Source: Candidatus Oscillochloris fontis
Lineage (GTDB): Bacteria > Chloroflexota > Chloroflexia > Chloroflexales > Chloroflexaceae
DNA: 51,083 bases
Assembly (NCBI RefSeq): GCF_004138135.1
Contig: NZ_RYFD01000031.1
Location: 1-51,083 of the forward strand
Direction: 5' to 3'
Below are positions 39,840-46,792 of this stretch, piece after piece. The first letter of the stretch is position 1, and each line of letters starts with the position of its first letter. Below the pieces are notes generated by a model, which ran no database searches, was not told the origin of the DNA, and worked only from the letters and a program-made list of their open reading frames with translations. The position numbers were made by a program, and so were the translations under genes.

Positions 39840-40580
39840 ATGCGCCCCACGAATCAAACTGCACAACTTGACCCGAAGACACTCCGGATGTTGGAGAAGT
39901 TTGCGGATCGTCGCTTTCAGAGTACCCAAGACAATCAGCGTCTGCGCTTAGTGATGTCTTGGTGGGTAGTGCGCAACAAGATAGTTGGCAATCTCAAGCG
40001 AGTGCTTGATATCACCGTTTCAGTTGTGGCGATCATTCTAGGTAGCCCCATTATGTTGGCGACCGCACTGGCGATCAAGCTCGATTCGCCTGGCCCGATC
40101 CTCTTCTGCCAAACACGGGTGGGGAAGTATGGTGAACACTTCGCCTGCTACAAATTTCGCTCAATGTATATTGATGCCGAAACTCGCAAAGCCGAGTTGA
40201 TGGCCAGGAATGAAGCGGATGGGCCTGTCTTCAAGATCAAACATGATCCGCGTGTGACACGAGTCGGACGGATCATTCGTAAATTGAGTATTGATGAGTT
40301 GCCGCAACTCTTCAACGTATTGCGTGGCGAGATGAGCCTCGTTGGCCCGCGACCAGCGCTGCCCAGTGAAGTTGCCAAGTATAACTATGAGCAGATTGGC
40401 CGTTTACATGCCATTCCTGGCATCACTGGGTTGCAACAAGTCTCTGGTCGTAGCGATGTTGATTTCAAGCGTTGGGTCGAATTGGATTTGCAGTATATCT
40501 CTGAACAGAGCATCTGGAAGGATCTTGAGATTTTGGTGCGAACGATTCCAGCCGTACTGTTCAGTAAGGGTGCATACTGA
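39840..40580 (+). CDS. Undecaprenyl-phosphate sugar-1-phosphate transferase (priming enzyme)
   Basis: 246 residues of the bacterial sugar-transferase (WbaP C-half/PglC) type. A re-entrant membrane helix ([20 protein letters not shown]) is followed by the cytoplasmic catalytic part: [35 protein letters not shown] and [16 protein letters not shown], all family signatures. It moves a sugar-1-phosphate from an NDP-sugar to undecaprenyl phosphate, the first step of repeat-unit synthesis. A basic N-terminus of about 50 residues precedes. Next gene 47 nt downstream. Confidence 0.92.
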
Positions 40581-40627: not shown

Positions 40628-42238
40628 ATGCGTAAGCTTCTCGTTGTGCTGGGCGTACCCGTCGATAATTTGACGATGGAAGAGGCCCTGGATCGTTGTG
40701 ATGAGTTCATCGCCATTGGTCGAGCGACAGGGCGAACCCATCAGATCGCGACGGTGAATGCTGATTTTGTGGTCAATTCGCTGCATGATCCCGAACTCCA
40801 ACGCATTCTGCAAGAGGCGGATATGGCTACCGCTGATGGTATGCCCCTCGTTTGGGGATCGCGGCTTCTGGGTGGCCCCTTGTCTGGTCGGGTGACTGGT
40901 GCGGATATGGTTCCGGCTTTAGCGCGGCGTGCTGCCCAGAAGGGCTATTCGATCTTCTTCCTGGGGGCACGTGAAGGGATTGCGGCGAAGGCGGCGGATA
41001 TGTTGCAGCAGCGCAATCCCGGTATGCGGATTGCGGGGGTGCTCTCACCACCACCACGCTCAATCTTGGAGATGGATCAGTCGGTGGTGGATGCCGTAAA
41101 GGCGGCGCAACCCGATATTCTCCTGGTTGCATTTGGTAATCCGAAGCAGGAGAAGTGGATCCGCATGTATGCCCACGAACTGCATGTGCCGATCTGTATT
41201 GGGGTGGGGGGGACCTTTGACATGATTGTCGGGGTCACCAAACGCGCCCCGACTTGGATGCAGAAGGTGGGTTTGGAGTGGGCGTATCGCTTGTCGCAAG
41301 AGCCACAACGGCTGGCCAAGCGCTATCTGCATGATTTTGGCTATTTTGGCTATTTCTTTGTGCGCCAGTGGTGGGGTATGCGGCGTGGAACCGCAATCTC
41401 GATGGTGCCGCCTAAGCCCGTGCCAGAGGTGGTTCCTCCGGCACTTCCTGTTCCCCCTCTCATCCCGGTTGAAGCTCCGCTCGCTCCTATCGCTCCATCC
41501 CTCCTACCTCCCACACCCCCCGATCCCCTAAGCCATACGCCTACCCCAATGATGACCTTGCAAGGGCGGTTGGATATTGATAATCAGGATGCATTTGCCG
41601 ATGAAGCCAATCGGTTGCTTGATGTGTCGCCCTATCTGATCCTCAATTTGGCCGAGGCGACCTTTCTGGATAGCTCGGCCCTTGGGGTGCTGGTTGCCCT
41701 TGCCAATCGTGCCCATCGTGCGGGTGGAGCGCTCTGGTTGGTGGCGATCCCGCCCCAGATCCAGAGCCTGTTTCGGCTGGTGCGCCTCGATACCTTCTTT
41801 GAGGTCTACCCTGATGCCGATACGGTTGAGTTCAAGCGGCGACAAGAACCGCAGCCGGTTGCGCCCCAGCCAACCGATAATGGTTGGAGTATTGTGCGTA
41901 TGCCCCGTATGTATGATGGCAATAACATTGCGACCATCACAGATCGGTGCTTAGAAGGGATCGAGACCAATCCCTATCTGGTTTTGGATTTTAGTGACAC
42001 AGTCTTCATGTCTAGTGCCGGTATGGCCTCGTTACTGCGGTTGGATCGGGCGGCTCGATCTAAGTCAGGGGCCTTGCGGGTTGTTAGTTGTTCGAATGAT
42101 CTGGTACGGACACTCAAGTTGATTAATATTGATACCATTCTTACGCTGATGGCTGATGTTGCTACGGCTACCCGTGAGCCAGTGCAGTCCGCTCCGAATC
42201 TCACCGACCTGCGGGTGATCCCGTCAGGCACGCAATAG
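40628..42238 (+). CDS. WecG/TagA-family glycosyltransferase fused to two STAS domains
   Basis: 536 residues from MRKLLVVLGVPVDNLTMEEA (40628). An earlier in-frame start at 40610 is possible. Residues 1 to about 245 form a complete WecG/TagA/CpsF glycosyltransferase (NADFVVN, TADGMPLVWGSRLLG, FGNPKQEKW, GVGGTFDMI). After a Pro-rich linker (about 255-307) come two STAS domains: about 308-402 with FLDSSALGVL, whose second Ser (Ser350) is at the usual phosphorylation site, and about 418-510 with FMSSAGMASL, where that site is Ala. Glycosyltransferases of this family normally end near residue 250. STAS domains bind RsbW-type kinases, one of which is encoded at 45901. Confidence 0.9.
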   Translation: MRKLLVVLGVPVDNLTMEEALDRCDEFIAIGRATGRTHQIATVNADFVVNSLHDPELQRILQEADMATADGMPLVWGSRLLGGPLSGRVTGADMVPALARRAAQKGYSIFFLGAREGIAAKAADMLQQRNPGMRIAGVLSPPPRSILEMDQSVVDAVKAAQPDILLVAFGNPKQEKWIRMYAHELHVPICIGVGGTFDMIVGVTKRAPTWMQKVGLEWAYRLSQEPQRLAKRYLHDFGYFGYFFVRQWWGMRRGTAISMVPPKPVPEVVPPALPVPPLIPVEAPLAPIAPSLLPPTPPDPLSHTPTPMMTLQGRLDIDNQDAFADEANRLLDVSPYLILNLAEATFLDSSALGVLVALANRAHRAGGALWLVAIPPQIQSLFRLVRLDTFFEVYPDADTVEFKRRQEPQPVAPQPTDNGWSIVRMPRMYDGNNIATITDRCLEGIETNPYLVLDFSDTVFMSSAGMASLLRLDRAARSKSGALRVVSCSNDLVRTLKLINIDTILTLMADVATATREPVQSAPNLTDLRVIPSGTQ

Positions 42239-42270: not shown

Positions 42271-43962
42271 ATGCAAGCGATCATTCTTGCAACTCATGAG
42301 GTGCGGACACTTCTCCCACTAACTGATACCATGCCGGGTGCGCTCCTCCCCATTGTGGATCGCCCGGTGATGGCGATGACGGTGGAGATCTTGGCGCGTA
42401 TTGGGCAGAAACGTATCTTAGTCAGTCTCTATAACCAAGGTGGCTCGATAGCTTCCTATTTTGGCAGTGGGAAGCGTTGGGGCGTGGATCTGGAGTATGT
42501 GGCTCAGCGTGAGAGTTGGGGTTCAGCGGGGTCATTGCGCTGGGTCGCCGGTCTGCTGGATGAGACCTTCTTGGTGCTGCCGGGGGATCAGGTGGTGGAT
42601 GTGGATGTGGAGGCGGCCTTGGCCTTCCATCGTGCCCATGGTGGGTTGGCGACAGTGATTATGCATCCCGCACTACCCGGAGCACATGTGCCACACCTCG
42701 CACTTACTCCTGATAACCAGGTGGGGGCGCATGGAACGCCCTATGCAGTCACCGGGGCGTTTATTTTTGAACCGCAGGTGCTTCAGCAGATTGCTCCACG
42801 TACCCAAGCTGACATCTTGGCGGATCTACTTCCAGCTCTGGCTACTTGCAATCATCCGGTGTATGGTTTTGTAATGCAGGGCTACTGGAACCCGTTAGAC
42901 AGCCTCGCCGCCTTCCACGCTGCGCAACAGGTAGTGCTCTATAGTGCAGTACAGGAGAAAGCCCCCGATCTGGCTCTGGGTGGTCCCTCTGAACGGGTAC
43001 GTTATCCCGCCTTGAGCAGTCGTCATATTGTGCCGGGGGTGTGGGTTGGCCCGAATCACTCCATCCACCCAAGTGTCAAGATTGCTGCCCCGGTCTATAT
43101 TGGTGATAACTGCTATATTGGGCGTGAAGTGGAGATCGGGGCCGGTACGGTGATCGGCTCGAATGTGGTGATTGATGATGAGGCAACGGTTAGTGGCAGT
43201 ACGATTCTCCGTGAAACCTATGTTGGTCAGTTGGTGAAGGTTGAGGGGCGAATTGTTACTCCAGCGACAATTAGTGATCCAGAGTCGGGTGAGACGACTC
43301 AGGTGGTTGATCCCTTCCTCCTGAGTCGGGTTGGTACACGCCATGAAGGTCCGAATCGTTTGGCTTTGAATCTTACCCGTGGTGTTGCAGGAGCCTTGTT
43401 GGTGGTGCTAGGGCCACTCTTCTTGATCCTCTTCTTCCTCACAACTATTGTTACCCTGGGGCGTCCAATCGTGCGCCACATGCGGGTTGGTCAGCGGATC
43501 ACCAATCCGGATGGTAGCCCCGGTCTGTATGAGTTCTCCCTCCTCAATTTCCGAACCCGCCGCCGTAATGGCCGCTATACACTCCTAGGAGGCTGGATGG
43601 AGCGTTGGGAGCTTCAACGTCTACCGGAGCTCATCAATGTCTTACGCGGCGATTTAGCCTTGGTAGGGGTCAAACCACTCACTCCCGATCAAGCCAAACT
43701 TCTCACTGAAGAGTGGCACCAGAAGCGTCATGATACCCAAGCAGGCATCACCGGACTCTGGTATCAACAAACTGATCCAAGCAGTGATTTAGATACGATC
43801 ATTATTGCCGATGTATACTATACGGCGACGCGCACATGGCATAGTGATGTGTTGCTCTTCTTGCGAACGCCTGCTATTTGGGTGCGGCGGAATATTCACC
43901 GCCACACATCGAAAGCCATGATCCATGCTGATCATGGGAGAAGCATGGAACCTTTGAGTTGA
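42271..43962 (+). CDS. Nucleotidyltransferase-like / beta-helix / sugar-transferase fusion
   Basis: 563 residues in three parts. Residues 1 to about 235 resemble a sugar-1-phosphate nucleotidyltransferase (IVDRPVMAMTVEILA, VLPGDQVVDVD), but the usual GGxGTRL loop reads LATHEVRTLLPLTD, so the active site is degenerate. Residues about 250-340 are left-handed beta-helix hexads (YIGDNCYIGREVEIGAGTVI). After a membrane helix (GALLVVLGPLFLILFFLTTI) comes a sugar-transferase domain (LQRLPELINVLRGDLALVGV, KPLT in place of PRP). The last part may initiate or help initiate repeat-unit assembly. Co-oriented with the STAS-glycosyltransferase. Confidence 0.85.
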   Translation: MQAIILATHEVRTLLPLTDTMPGALLPIVDRPVMAMTVEILARIGQKRILVSLYNQGGSIASYFGSGKRWGVDLEYVAQRESWGSAGSLRWVAGLLDETFLVLPGDQVVDVDVEAALAFHRAHGGLATVIMHPALPGAHVPHLALTPDNQVGAHGTPYAVTGAFIFEPQVLQQIAPRTQADILADLLPALATCNHPVYGFVMQGYWNPLDSLAAFHAAQQVVLYSAVQEKAPDLALGGPSERVRYPALSSRHIVPGVWVGPNHSIHPSVKIAAPVYIGDNCYIGREVEIGAGTVIGSNVVIDDEATVSGSTILRETYVGQLVKVEGRIVTPATISDPESGETTQVVDPFLLSRVGTRHEGPNRLALNLTRGVAGALLVVLGPLFLILFFLTTIVTLGRPIVRHMRVGQRITNPDGSPGLYEFSLLNFRTRRRNGRYTLLGGWMERWELQRLPELINVLRGDLALVGVKPLTPDQAKLLTEEWHQKRHDTQAGITGLWYQQTDPSSDLDTIIIADVYYTATRTWHSDVLLFLRTPAIWVRRNIHRHTSKAMIHADHGRSMEPLS

Positions 43963-43978: not shown

Positions 43979-44317
43979 ATGGAGATGAAAACTCGCGTTG
44001 CCGGCGATGTACATATTTTGGAGATTGCTGGGCGGTTCGATACGAACACCGTCCCGCCGGTTGCTGCATGGTTGGAGCAGGTTACAGCCGCCCCTAAGGC
44101 GCGGGTATTGGTTAATCTGGCCGAGACAACATTTGTTGATTCGACCGCATTAGCTACGTTGGTTCAGGCGCTCAAACGCTGTCAGCAAGTCCAGGGCGAT
44201 CTGTGTGTGTGTAGTTTGCGCCGTCCAGTCTATATGATCTTTGAGTTGACCCGTCTGGATAAGGCGTTCAATATCTTTGTGGATGAGGAGCATGCGCTCC
44301 AGGCATTGATTAGTTGA
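43979..44317 (+). CDS. STAS-domain anti-anti-sigma-type protein
   Basis: 112 residues, single STAS domain: VHILEIAGRFDTNT, then ARVLVNLAETTFVDSTALATL, where Thr56 occupies the phospho-acceptor position (usually Ser). Such proteins bind RsbW-type kinases until phosphorylated. The kinase (45901) and a PP2C phosphatase (44381) follow, forming a partner-switching set. AAGGAGG precedes the ATG but can pair with CTCCT (43973-43977) in a 5-bp hairpin, which might tune translation. Confidence 0.9.
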   Translation: MEMKTRVAGDVHILEIAGRFDTNTVPPVAAWLEQVTAAPKARVLVNLAETTFVDSTALATLVQALKRCQQVQGDLCVCSLRRPVYMIFELTRLDKAFNIFVDEEHALQALIS

Positions 44318-44380: not shown

Positions 44381-45904
44381 ATGCTCGTCGCACTACTCAG
44401 TTCTCAATATCAACGTTTTGCCGCCATCGCTGAGGCATGGCTGGCTCAAGGAGCCAGCGCCTTTGGGGTCTTTCAGGATGGCCGCCCACTTATCTATTGG
44501 CCGAGTAGCCATCGTTTGGTGCGGCCCAGCCTCACTGCGCCGATCATCCAGGATGATCAGCCGGTTGCTGATCTGCGTGTAGCTGGGATCACGGGGATGG
44601 CGGCGGAGGCGCGCTTGCGTGCTGATGCTGTCATTATTAGCTCCTTGTTGCAATTGGAGCATGATCTTCAGTGTATGACCGCCGATCTGGTGACAAGCCA
44701 GGATCAGCAATTGGCGCTCTATCGCCTCAGTCAGTCCATGCGTGATCATGTGACCGTGCTCGAAACTCTGCGCTCATTGGTGGCGGAGGGTATGCGGATG
44801 ACCAAGAGCCATGCCGGTTTTGCAGCCTTTATTCCTAAACATGGCCAAGAACCGCTTTTGGTCAAATCTGCTGAAGACTTTTTGAGTGATGAGATGGCAT
44901 GGCGTATTTATTGGCATACCCGTTCATTAGAACATGCAGTAAACTTGCCCGATCCGGATGCGGATTTTCCTACGCTACCGGACATAGAGGATTTGCTGGC
45001 AGTGCCGATACGGGTGCGTGGAAGTATTATGGCAGGCATGGCCATGGCTAATCGTCCTGGTGGATTTGGTACCCCAGATATGAAGCTCATTCAGGCGATT
45101 GCCGATCAGGCGAGTGCCCAAATTGAACGTATGTTGCTCTATCAAGAGATGTTCGATCAGGCCAAGTTGCGTACCGAGATGGATCTGGCCCGCCGGGTTC
45201 AACTCGATCTGCTCCTCCGTCAGTTGCCTCAGGTTACGGGTCTTGATATCTATGCCACGTCACGCCCAGCCTACCAAGTTGGCGGCGATTTCTTCGATTT
45301 TATTGTTAATCCGGGGCGTCCGTTTGTCTTCTCACTCGGTGATGTGACTGGAAAGGGTCTCTCGGCTGCACTCTTAATGACGATGACCCGCTCAGCTATC
45401 CATAGTAAAGCCCAGTTCATGCCCTTTCCTACTCCTGAAGCTGTCATGCGACAGTCGAATGAGGATCTCTATAACGATTTTACCCGTGTCGGTGTCTTTG
45501 CCACGGTCTTTGTTGGCCAATACGAACCCGGTACGCAACGTTTGCTCTACGCCAATGCGGGCCATGCCCCTGTTATCTACCGTCCCATTGACGGCCCTGC
45601 CCAACTCTTACGGGCAGATAGTACCGCTATCGGTATTCTCCCGGTGAGCCACTGCCGAAACCAGACCCTCAACATGCGCCCTGGCGATCTCTTGGTTGTG
45701 GCAACGGATGGTTTTAGTGACGCCCGTAATGCGCATGATGAGACCTTCGATATTGAACGCCTGATCGATCTGATCGATCAGTTGGCCCCACGCACCGCCC
45801 GCGACATTGCCGATGCGATGTTCGAGACTGTTGATCGCTTCGGAGGGGGGCGTAACCAAGATGATGATCAGACCCTCGTGGTGATCAAAGGAGCAGCATC
45901 GTGA
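44381..45904 (+). CDS. PP2C/SpoIIE-type phosphatase with N-terminal sensor region
   Basis: 507 residues. The N-terminal 80 residues are of unknown type, followed by a coiled coil and a GAF-like domain (about 130-260, VLETLRSLVAEGMRMTKSHA, LLAVPIRVRGSIMAGMAMAN). The phosphatase domain (about 270-507) has metal-binding GGDFFDF, LGDVTGKGLSAALLM, YANAGHAPVIYR, VVATDGFSDARN and DDDQTLVV. It should dephosphorylate the STAS protein upstream and possibly the STAS domain of the glycosyltransferase. The signal sensed by GAF is unknown. Its stop overlaps the kinase start. Confidence 0.92.
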   Translation: MLVALLSSQYQRFAAIAEAWLAQGASAFGVFQDGRPLIYWPSSHRLVRPSLTAPIIQDDQPVADLRVAGITGMAAEARLRADAVIISSLLQLEHDLQCMTADLVTSQDQQLALYRLSQSMRDHVTVLETLRSLVAEGMRMTKSHAGFAAFIPKHGQEPLLVKSAEDFLSDEMAWRIYWHTRSLEHAVNLPDPDADFPTLPDIEDLLAVPIRVRGSIMAGMAMANRPGGFGTPDMKLIQAIADQASAQIERMLLYQEMFDQAKLRTEMDLARRVQLDLLLRQLPQVTGLDIYATSRPAYQVGGDFFDFIVNPGRPFVFSLGDVTGKGLSAALLMTMTRSAIHSKAQFMPFPTPEAVMRQSNEDLYNDFTRVGVFATVFVGQYEPGTQRLLYANAGHAPVIYRPIDGPAQLLRADSTAIGILPVSHCRNQTLNMRPGDLLVVATDGFSDARNAHDETFDIERLIDLIDQLAPRTARDIADAMFETVDRFGGGRNQDDDQTLVVIKGAAS

Positions 45905-46335
45905 GCCTGCAGCATCCAGAGGTTGTCCGGCTTGATCTGCCGGCCCGCTACACCTATCTGCATATTCTCAGTGATTGCATTGCGGATATGCTTCGCCAGA
46001 TTGATGGCATCGAAGATCATGAGATGCTGACTTACAATATGCAACTCGCTGCCCATGAAGCGTGTACCAATATTGTCGGTCATGCCTATGCTGGTTCTCA
46101 GAGTGGGAATGAGCGGATTGTCATCTCGTTGGCGCTCTTTCCGCATCCACGACGCTTACAGATCGAGTTACGTGATACTGGTAGGTCGTTTGATCCCGAA
46201 GAGGTGCCCACCCCAACGCTGGATCAGGCCCAGGTTCATGGCTATGGTCTCTTTTTGATGCGTAATTTGATGGATAGTGTGACCTATACCCCTCAGCCGG
46301 GAGATAATCATTGGTGTTTGGTAAAACATTTGTAA
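45901..46335 (+). CDS. RsbW/SpoIIAB-type anti-sigma kinase
   Basis: 144 residues, GTG start within the preceding gene's stop (GTGA overlap, coupled). GHKL ATPase features: N box NMQLAAHEACTNIVGHAY, ELRDTGRSFDPEEV and GYGLFLMRNLMDSV. It phosphorylates STAS partners and can bind a sigma factor. No sigma factor gene is present in the window, so its output may be the STAS proteins themselves, including the fused glycosyltransferase. Confidence 0.9.
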   Translation: MSLQHPEVVRLDLPARYTYLHILSDCIADMLRQIDGIEDHEMLTYNMQLAAHEACTNIVGHAYAGSQSGNERIVISLALFPHPRRLQIELRDTGRSFDPEEVPTPTLDQAQVHGYGLFLMRNLMDSVTYTPQPGDNHWCLVKHL

Positions 46336-46432
46336 GTTAGGTCTTGGTCGGGTGCGGAGGGGCACTCGCACCGAGGGCCATTGTTTCTGCATTATTTCTA
46401 CTGGTGCCGTATGTTCCGAAGGGGGGACTCCT

Positions 46433-46792
46433 ATGGCGACGATTCTGATTGTGGATGACTATGCACCCAATCATCGCCTAATGAGTTTTGTCCTTGAACA
46501 GCATGGCTATGCGGTTCAAGCGGTGGTGGATGGTCGCCAGGCGTTGGAGAGTCTGGAGTATACCAACGTGGATCTGGTGCTGACGGATCTTACGATGCCA
46601 AAGATGGATGGCTTAGAGCTCACCCGCATCTTACGCGCTGATCCACGGTTTGCGCTGATCCCAATTATTATTGTGACGGCGAGTACTCGCGAGCAGGATC
46701 ATGTACGGGCAAGTGGGATTGGCGTGAATGCTTTTTTGACCAAGCCGGTCGATTCGGAAGATTTGGTAGCTGAAGTGGCTCGGTTGCTCTAA
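46433..46792 (+). CDS. Single-domain response regulator
   Basis: 120 residues, receiver only, starting MATILIVDDYAPN (46433) after a G-rich ribosome-binding site. Asp8/Asp9, phospho-acceptor Asp52 (VLTDLTMPKMDG), Thr and Lys (IVTAST, FLTKPVD) of the canonical site are present. Having no output domain it must act by protein contact. It lies between the kinase and glycosyltransferases. The histidine kinase at 38339 may phosphorylate it. Confidence 0.9.
   Translation: MATILIVDDYAPNHRLMSFVLEQHGYAVQAVVDGRQALESLEYTNVDLVLTDLTMPKMDGLELTRILRADPRFALIPIIIVTASTREQDHVRASGIGVNAFLTKPVDSEDLVAEVARLL

Follow-up and report, generated by a model that had tools for sequence, protein, structure and literature searches.

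A WecG/TagA-type glycosyltransferase fused to two STAS domains in Candidatus Oscillochloris fontis, a candidate direct output of a partner switch

The familiar targets of partner switches are sigma factors. In the accessible parts of the sources, the target of SypA of Vibrio fischeri is given as unknown (PMC8256260, PMC4517449) and partner switches with an enzyme as output are described for SiaC-SiaD, HsbA-HsbD and BgrV-BgrR (PMC8457831). A review describes all4160 of Anabaena, in the section accessible, as a glycosyltransferase that bears a STAS domain at its N terminus (PMC8256260), and according to the accessible text of a further paper the gene belongs to a set required for the heterocyst envelope polysaccharide (PMC4390870). 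A glycosyltransferase-STAS fusion therefore has a precedent in print, and the preliminary description of the present locus was too narrow in holding that STAS domains normally sit on anti-sigma antagonists or transporters. The activity of the glycosyltransferase TagA depends on a C-terminal appendage that is needed for membrane docking and catalysis, and the enzyme is thought to be activated when this appendage folds at the membrane, its dimers being inactive (PMC6493773, accessible part). In the full-text literature, with partial coverage and most subscription journals outside it, no paper joining WecG, TagA or CpsF with STAS was found. Here we describe such a fusion in the window, by which we mean the whole stretch of 51,083 nucleotides that was analysed from contig NZ_RYFD01000031.1 (Table 1).

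Table 1. Positions of the fusion gene, its parts and the neighbouring genes in the window.
Feature	Position	Strand	Basis and remarks
Bacterial sugar transferase (Bac_transf)	39840..40580	+	Pfam, NCBIfam; Asp-Glu dyad present
WecG/TagA glycosyltransferase - linker - STAS1 - STAS2 fusion	40628..42238	+	536 aa, single frame; Pfam and genome search
WecG/TagA catalytic part and C-terminal appendage	40628..41395	+	Residues 1-256; alignment with TagA
Pro-rich linker, low model confidence	41396..41545	+	Residues 257-306
STAS1	41546..41821	+	Genome search; predicted phospho-acceptor Ser349, codon 41672-41674
STAS2	41876..42169	+	Genome search; codon 42014-42016 for Ser463 at acceptor position; Ser in place of the preceding Asp
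Nucleotidyltransferase - hexapeptide - Bac_transf-like protein	42271..43962	+	Asp-Glu dyad absent
Stand-alone STAS protein	43979..44317	+	Motif VDSTAL
GAF - SpoIIE (PP2C-type) phosphatase	44381..45904	+	SpoIIE domain E 1.1e-40 (Pfam)
RsbW/SpoIIAB-type kinase	45901..46335	+	HATPase_c_2 E 1.8e-22 (Pfam)
Single-domain response regulator receiver	46352..46792	+	Pfam

The fusion frame opens with an ATG at 40628, codes to 42235 and closes with a stop codon that ends at 42238. Pfam assigned Glyco_tran_WecG (PF03808) to residues 64-233 (E 9.6e-62; 208.1 bits against a curated cut-off of 27.4), and both STAS (PF01740; E 4.4e-28) and STAS_2 (E 1.6e-20) to two stretches each; two NCBIfam models also scored above their cut-offs, TIGR00696 (154.3 bits against 69) and TIGR00377, that of the anti-sigma antagonist superfamily (80.9 bits against 53.45). 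An AlphaFold2 model built from 26 sequences had a mean pLDDT of 74.4 and a pTM of 0.46, with low confidence at residues of about 254-302, and Foldseek matched it to TagA (7mpk_B; E 1.6e-15), TM1442 (1vc1_A; E 5.0e-6) and SpoIIAA (1th8_B; E 2.4e-5). At this pTM the arrangement of the domains is unreliable and the contacts between them were left unused. The linker is 15-79 residues long among relatives in the alignment. The initial reading of a complete WecG/TagA enzyme with two C-terminal STAS domains is thus borne out by the single frame, Pfam and Foldseek, the domain search returning two STAS stretches and the predicted model matching STAS structures.

Residues T37, N39, D65, R214 and R221 of TagA align with T42, N44, D70, R221 and R228 of the fusion, all five of which are invariant in an alignment of 26 sequences, and the third appendage arginine of TagA, Arg224, falls on Lys231, next to an invariant Arg232. 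In the accessible part of the TagA study, D65, T37 and R221 are active-site parts and R214 projects into the active site (PMC6493773). With these key residues aligned and invariant in the 26, the glycosyltransferase of the fusion is probably active. The protein is probably membrane-associated.

The predicted phospho-acceptor of STAS1 was placed by alignment with PDB chains. At Ser349, 1th8_B reads DSSG and 1tid_B reads DASG, the sole difference lying exactly there; we take the SpoIIAA acceptor to be Ser58, the Ser directly after Asp, and 1tid presumably carries the acceptor-site mutant. Ser349 is identical in 29 of the 29 rows with a letter at that point in a 30-row alignment (one row is cut off there), position 350 varies (S in 18, T in 8, A in 3), and Asp348-Ser349 is invariant in the alignment of 26. 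Within STAS2, Ser463 aligns with the acceptor and is kept in 27 of 28 rows, with Gln once (L059; L and G numbers are our locus and genome labels). The Asp before it is lost, 20 of the 28 rows having Ala there and the other 8 Ser; a ninth Ser, in a count of 29, belongs to L056, in which the frame stops short of STAS2. SSAG, the motif of STAS2, also occurs in the STAS protein 4hyl. Acceptor-residue counts use all 30 rows, the alignment of 26 and the domain profiles built in this work leave out L054, L056, L063 and L064, and a joint alignment leaves out L054, L063, L064 and seven duplicate loci. The preliminary description had named Ser350 as the intact phospho-Ser and seen an Ala at the equivalent site of STAS2; the alignment with SpoIIAA chains and 29 relatives rejects both, the first being off by one and the second a one-residue misalignment, in which Ala464 is the residue after Ser463. 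Its suggestion that STAS2 is locked in the unphosphorylated state rested on this misalignment and is not supported, because STAS2 keeps Ser463 at the acceptor position. STAS2 may be a poorer or different substrate.

Some match to the fusion protein occurred in 137 of the 158 genomes searched of its class. Of the 41 genomes in the family to which the window belongs, 26 have the fusion, as do two from a second family of the same order, 29 genes altogether; among them are a genome with two copies (G004), one with the gene split over two contigs (G003) and one with the first part in another frame (G021), and in G062 STAS1 alone is seen before the contig end. A species-wide scan with one genome each of 84,980 species gave at least 590 matching stretches, at least 566 of them encoding a relative, of which the best 80 were kept. 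Because the ranking used the whole fusion as query, counts among them are biased to fusions and are not population frequencies. By the profiles built in this work, 71 of the best 80 of at least 566 relatives are fusions, 45 with two STAS domains and 26 with one (of the 80, Pfam assigns STAS to 69 and STAS_2 to 70); this treats L169 as a non-fusion, a two-STAS frame lying just behind its WecG frame. By phylum, fusions among the best 80 of at least 566 comprise 14/14 Chloroflexota, 29/32 Verrucomicrobiota, 15/15 Acidobacteriota, 5/5 Armatimonadota, 5/6 unassigned, 1/1 each for Pseudomonadota (Luteimonas), Kiritimatiellota and Lentisphaerota, 0/2 Planctomycetota and 0/1 each for Actinomycetota, Omnitrophota and Auribacterota. 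An assembly artefact or a genus-confined gene was rejected on this recurrence in the family and in several phyla. A tree was built from 120 WecG domains, left after 7 duplicates were dropped from 127 and including 20 STAS-less paralogues; on it, the distribution of fusions requires 7 or more changes of state. Contig ends truncate some of the rows scored as lacking STAS (L054, L181), and the sequences had been selected by similarity to the full-length fusion, so the tree neither shows nor rules out a single origin. Among plasmid records, 281 match, none with one place covering 80% of the fusion query, and the 20 listed cover 41-46%.

The gene order of the window recurs as sugar transferase, fusion, nucleotidyltransferase/pseudo-transferase, STAS, GAF-SpoIIE, RsbW and response regulator. 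For 21 of the 29 fusion genes, the fetched locus also contains a gene for an RsbW-type kinase, usually with the STAS protein, the GAF-SpoIIE phosphatase and the response regulator. Five of the eight loci without it are cut by the contig end (L041, L045, L050, L051, L056), and the remaining three all belong to genus g5 (L038-L040), in which the fusion stands apart from the module; the rest of the cassette lies together in two of its genomes (L229, L230), and STAS, phosphatase, RsbW and response regulator lie near a contig end in the third (L231). In genus g18, RsbW stays next to the fusion (L042, L053) and STAS, phosphatase and response regulator are on other contigs (L232, L233). The identification of an RsbW-type kinase at 45901 and a phosphatase at 44381 in the window was confirmed by Pfam, and residues conserved at 95% or more in 20 RsbW and 19 phosphatase sequences, the window included, include those taken to bind ATP and metal. 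The Asp-Glu dyad is catalytic in Bac_transf sugar transferases; the sugar transferase at 39840 keeps it in 23/23 sequences, and in the C-terminal Bac_transf domain encoded at 42271-43962 its Glu is absent in 23/23 sequences, with Arg in 21, making this domain an apparent conserved pseudo-enzyme.

In the species-wide set, an RsbW gene was near the fusion in 11/14 Chloroflexota and 4/29 Verrucomicrobiota (L133, L135, L140, L143) among the best 80 of at least 566, flanks varying in length. In flanks of the same set, again of varying length, none was seen for the other 25 of 29 Verrucomicrobiota fusions or for the 15 Acidobacteriota, 5 Armatimonadota and Luteimonas fusions. The STAS1 Asp-Ser pair is present, among the same best 80 of at least 566, in 14/14 Chloroflexota, 28/29 Verrucomicrobiota, 2/5 Armatimonadota and 0/15 Acidobacteriota, and the Luteimonas fusion has it in both STAS domains. 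The pair and RsbW thus go together by phylum, a pattern that is suggestive but drawn from few independent lineages, with Armatimonadota and Luteimonas keeping the pair and no RsbW seen. In Verrucomicrobiota L140, a STAS gene (6115), a gene joining RsbW and SpoIIE (6472) and a response regulator gene (8274) lie directly upstream of the fusion (8869), and in L133, L135 and L143 the RsbW group is some 5 to 8 kb from it; both RsbW and SpoIIE domains were recognised by Pfam in L135, L140 and L143, and an RsbW domain in L133. The groups at L140:6115-8663 and L143:16026-18648, in which RsbW and SpoIIE are joined in one protein between STAS and response regulator, recall SypA/SypE. The Acidobacteriota fusions with one STAS domain and no Asp-Ser (L144-L147, L149, L152, L154, L156, L160, L162, L164-L167, L170) are apparently, judging by this motif, a natural set of 15 switch-less forms.

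The direct control by a kinase/phosphatase pair that the preliminary description proposed is the best-supported reading of these data, and we give an even chance to the idea that the neighbouring genes encode a partner switch with the fusion enzyme as its direct output. It is favoured by the invariance of Asp348-Ser349, the 21 of 29 loci with RsbW, the g18 split, the L140 group and the conserved kinase and phosphatase residues, and further by the phylum pattern, the TagA-type appendage, the precedents for enzyme outputs and the sigma factor complement of the genome. This has 11 Sigma70_r2 matches, of which ten were tested (the eleventh is weak, at 25.2 bits, on a short contig): five look RpoD-like and five ECF-like, and none of the ten reaches the SigB/F/G-family TIGR02980 cut-off of 234.35 bits, the best shown scoring 143.3. 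Against direct control stand modules that lack the fusion, the g5 split, STAS-less paralogue loci that also lie near RsbW, and the absence of any RsbW seen nearby for most fusions outside Chloroflexota.

A rather unlikely alternative is that the STAS pair forms a constitutive scaffold, either with the nucleotidyltransferase/pseudo-transferase protein or in an oligomer, free of phosphorylation control. The fusion and the nucleotidyltransferase/pseudo-transferase gene do co-occur, both being present in 25 of 41 family genomes, each alone in one (G005, G026) and neither in 14, and the acidobacterial STAS domain lacks the acceptor Ser in 15/15 of the best 80 of at least 566, so it serves there without it. 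Against a scaffold stand the invariant Asp-Ser of Chloroflexota STAS1 and the recurrence of the kinase-phosphatase cassette.

We regard it as distinctly less probable that the kinase-phosphatase-STAS module controls something else, its closeness to the fusion reflecting a shared polysaccharide gene cluster in which the fused STAS domains are not partners. A close module with RsbW 55-59% identical exists in five family genomes that lack the fusion (G005, at a contig edge; G013, with the phosphatase in two frames; G025, G027, G028), and modules uncut by a contig end hold a stand-alone STAS protein with the DS motif, an ordinary substrate. However, g18 keeps the kinase beside the fusion and no stand-alone STAS there, an equivalent gene group adjoins the L140 fusion, and no SigB/F-type sigma factor was seen among the ten. 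Related STAS-phosphatase-RsbW-STAS-response regulator modules with two separate STAS proteins occur in L228 and L235-L238, those of L228 and L236 adjoining genes that resemble glycosyltransferases by eye.

WecG paralogues that lack STAS, taken from the same genomes, failed as a clean control, 12 of their 20 loci also lying near RsbW-like and STAS genes; closeness to RsbW is therefore not specific to the fusion, and adjacency alone proves little. Ten of these 12 loci (L189, L190, L191, L194-L197, L200, L201, L204, L206, L207) have two RsbW-like genes, and no match to the phosphatase was found in the stretches of the 12. In L189, the STAS protein reads YINSAG and a gene resembling an acyl-CoA carboxylase subunit by eye lies between the WecG and RsbW/STAS genes. 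The genome of the window has six RsbW-like matches above 75 bits, one in this cassette and five elsewhere, and 24 STAS matches, three of them in the cassette, so that a partner may lie elsewhere and cross-talk is possible.

In SLC26/SulP transporters, the STAS domain acts in cis on its own protein, and with this parallel and the acceptor-less acidobacterial forms one could picture the STAS domains sensing a nucleotide, lipid or ion and acting on the attached enzyme with no protein partner, but the best STAS structure matches by Foldseek are anti-sigma antagonists and we consider this very improbable.

For direct control by the neighbouring kinase and phosphatase, we infer the following course. 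The RsbW-type kinase, for which STAS1 and the stand-alone STAS protein would compete, would bind STAS1 and phosphorylate Ser349, and the GAF-SpoIIE phosphatase would reverse this on a signal, the response regulator possibly gating the pair. Kinase binding or release beside the C-terminal appendage would change the activity or assembly of the enzyme, in either direction: since the linker and STAS domains follow the TagA-type appendage, a kinase on STAS1 could block or favour membrane docking. STAS2 might act as a second, altered docking site. A wider proposal, which we hold to be doubtful, is a widespread STAS-regulated WecG family in which kinase binding and phosphorylation of Ser349 would toggle the TagA-type equilibrium between an inactive dimer and a membrane-bound active monomer, and in which lineages such as Acidobacteriota would have dropped the phospho-switch. 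If true, this wider proposal would provide fast control of exopolysaccharide synthesis independent of gene expression, the target of the switch being built into the polymer-making enzyme. A glycosyltransferase with STAS domains in its own chain points to a class of target, and direct control of the enzyme is testable with four proteins.

Compared with TagA/TarA of the WecB/TagA/CpsF family (PF03808, TIGR00696), the fusion shares the whole catalytic part and appendage with key residues aligned; the TagA PDB chain, in contrast, is 244 aa with no STAS, and in the fusion two STAS domains follow the appendage. With RsbU/RsbV/RsbW and SpoIIE/SpoIIAA/SpoIIAB the locus has in common an Asp-Ser STAS domain, an RsbW-type kinase and a SpoIIE-type phosphatase in one cassette, but here STAS is fused to an enzyme, and no SigB/F-type sigma factor is among the ten tested. 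Relative to all4160, known from the accessible review description as a glycosyltransferase with one STAS domain said to be N-terminal, the present protein has two and both are C-terminal. SiaABCD, HsbA-HsbD and BgrV-BgrR likewise have an enzyme, not a sigma factor, under the control of the switch, as far as the accessible text goes (PMC8457831), although their target is a diguanylate cyclase and the STAS or STAS-like partner works in trans. SypA/SypE of Vibrio fischeri, from the accessible parts of two papers, similarly set a STAS protein and a kinase/phosphatase in a polysaccharide locus (PMC8256260, PMC4517449); SypA is STAS-only and SypE joins kinase and phosphatase, whereas here STAS is carried on the enzyme itself.
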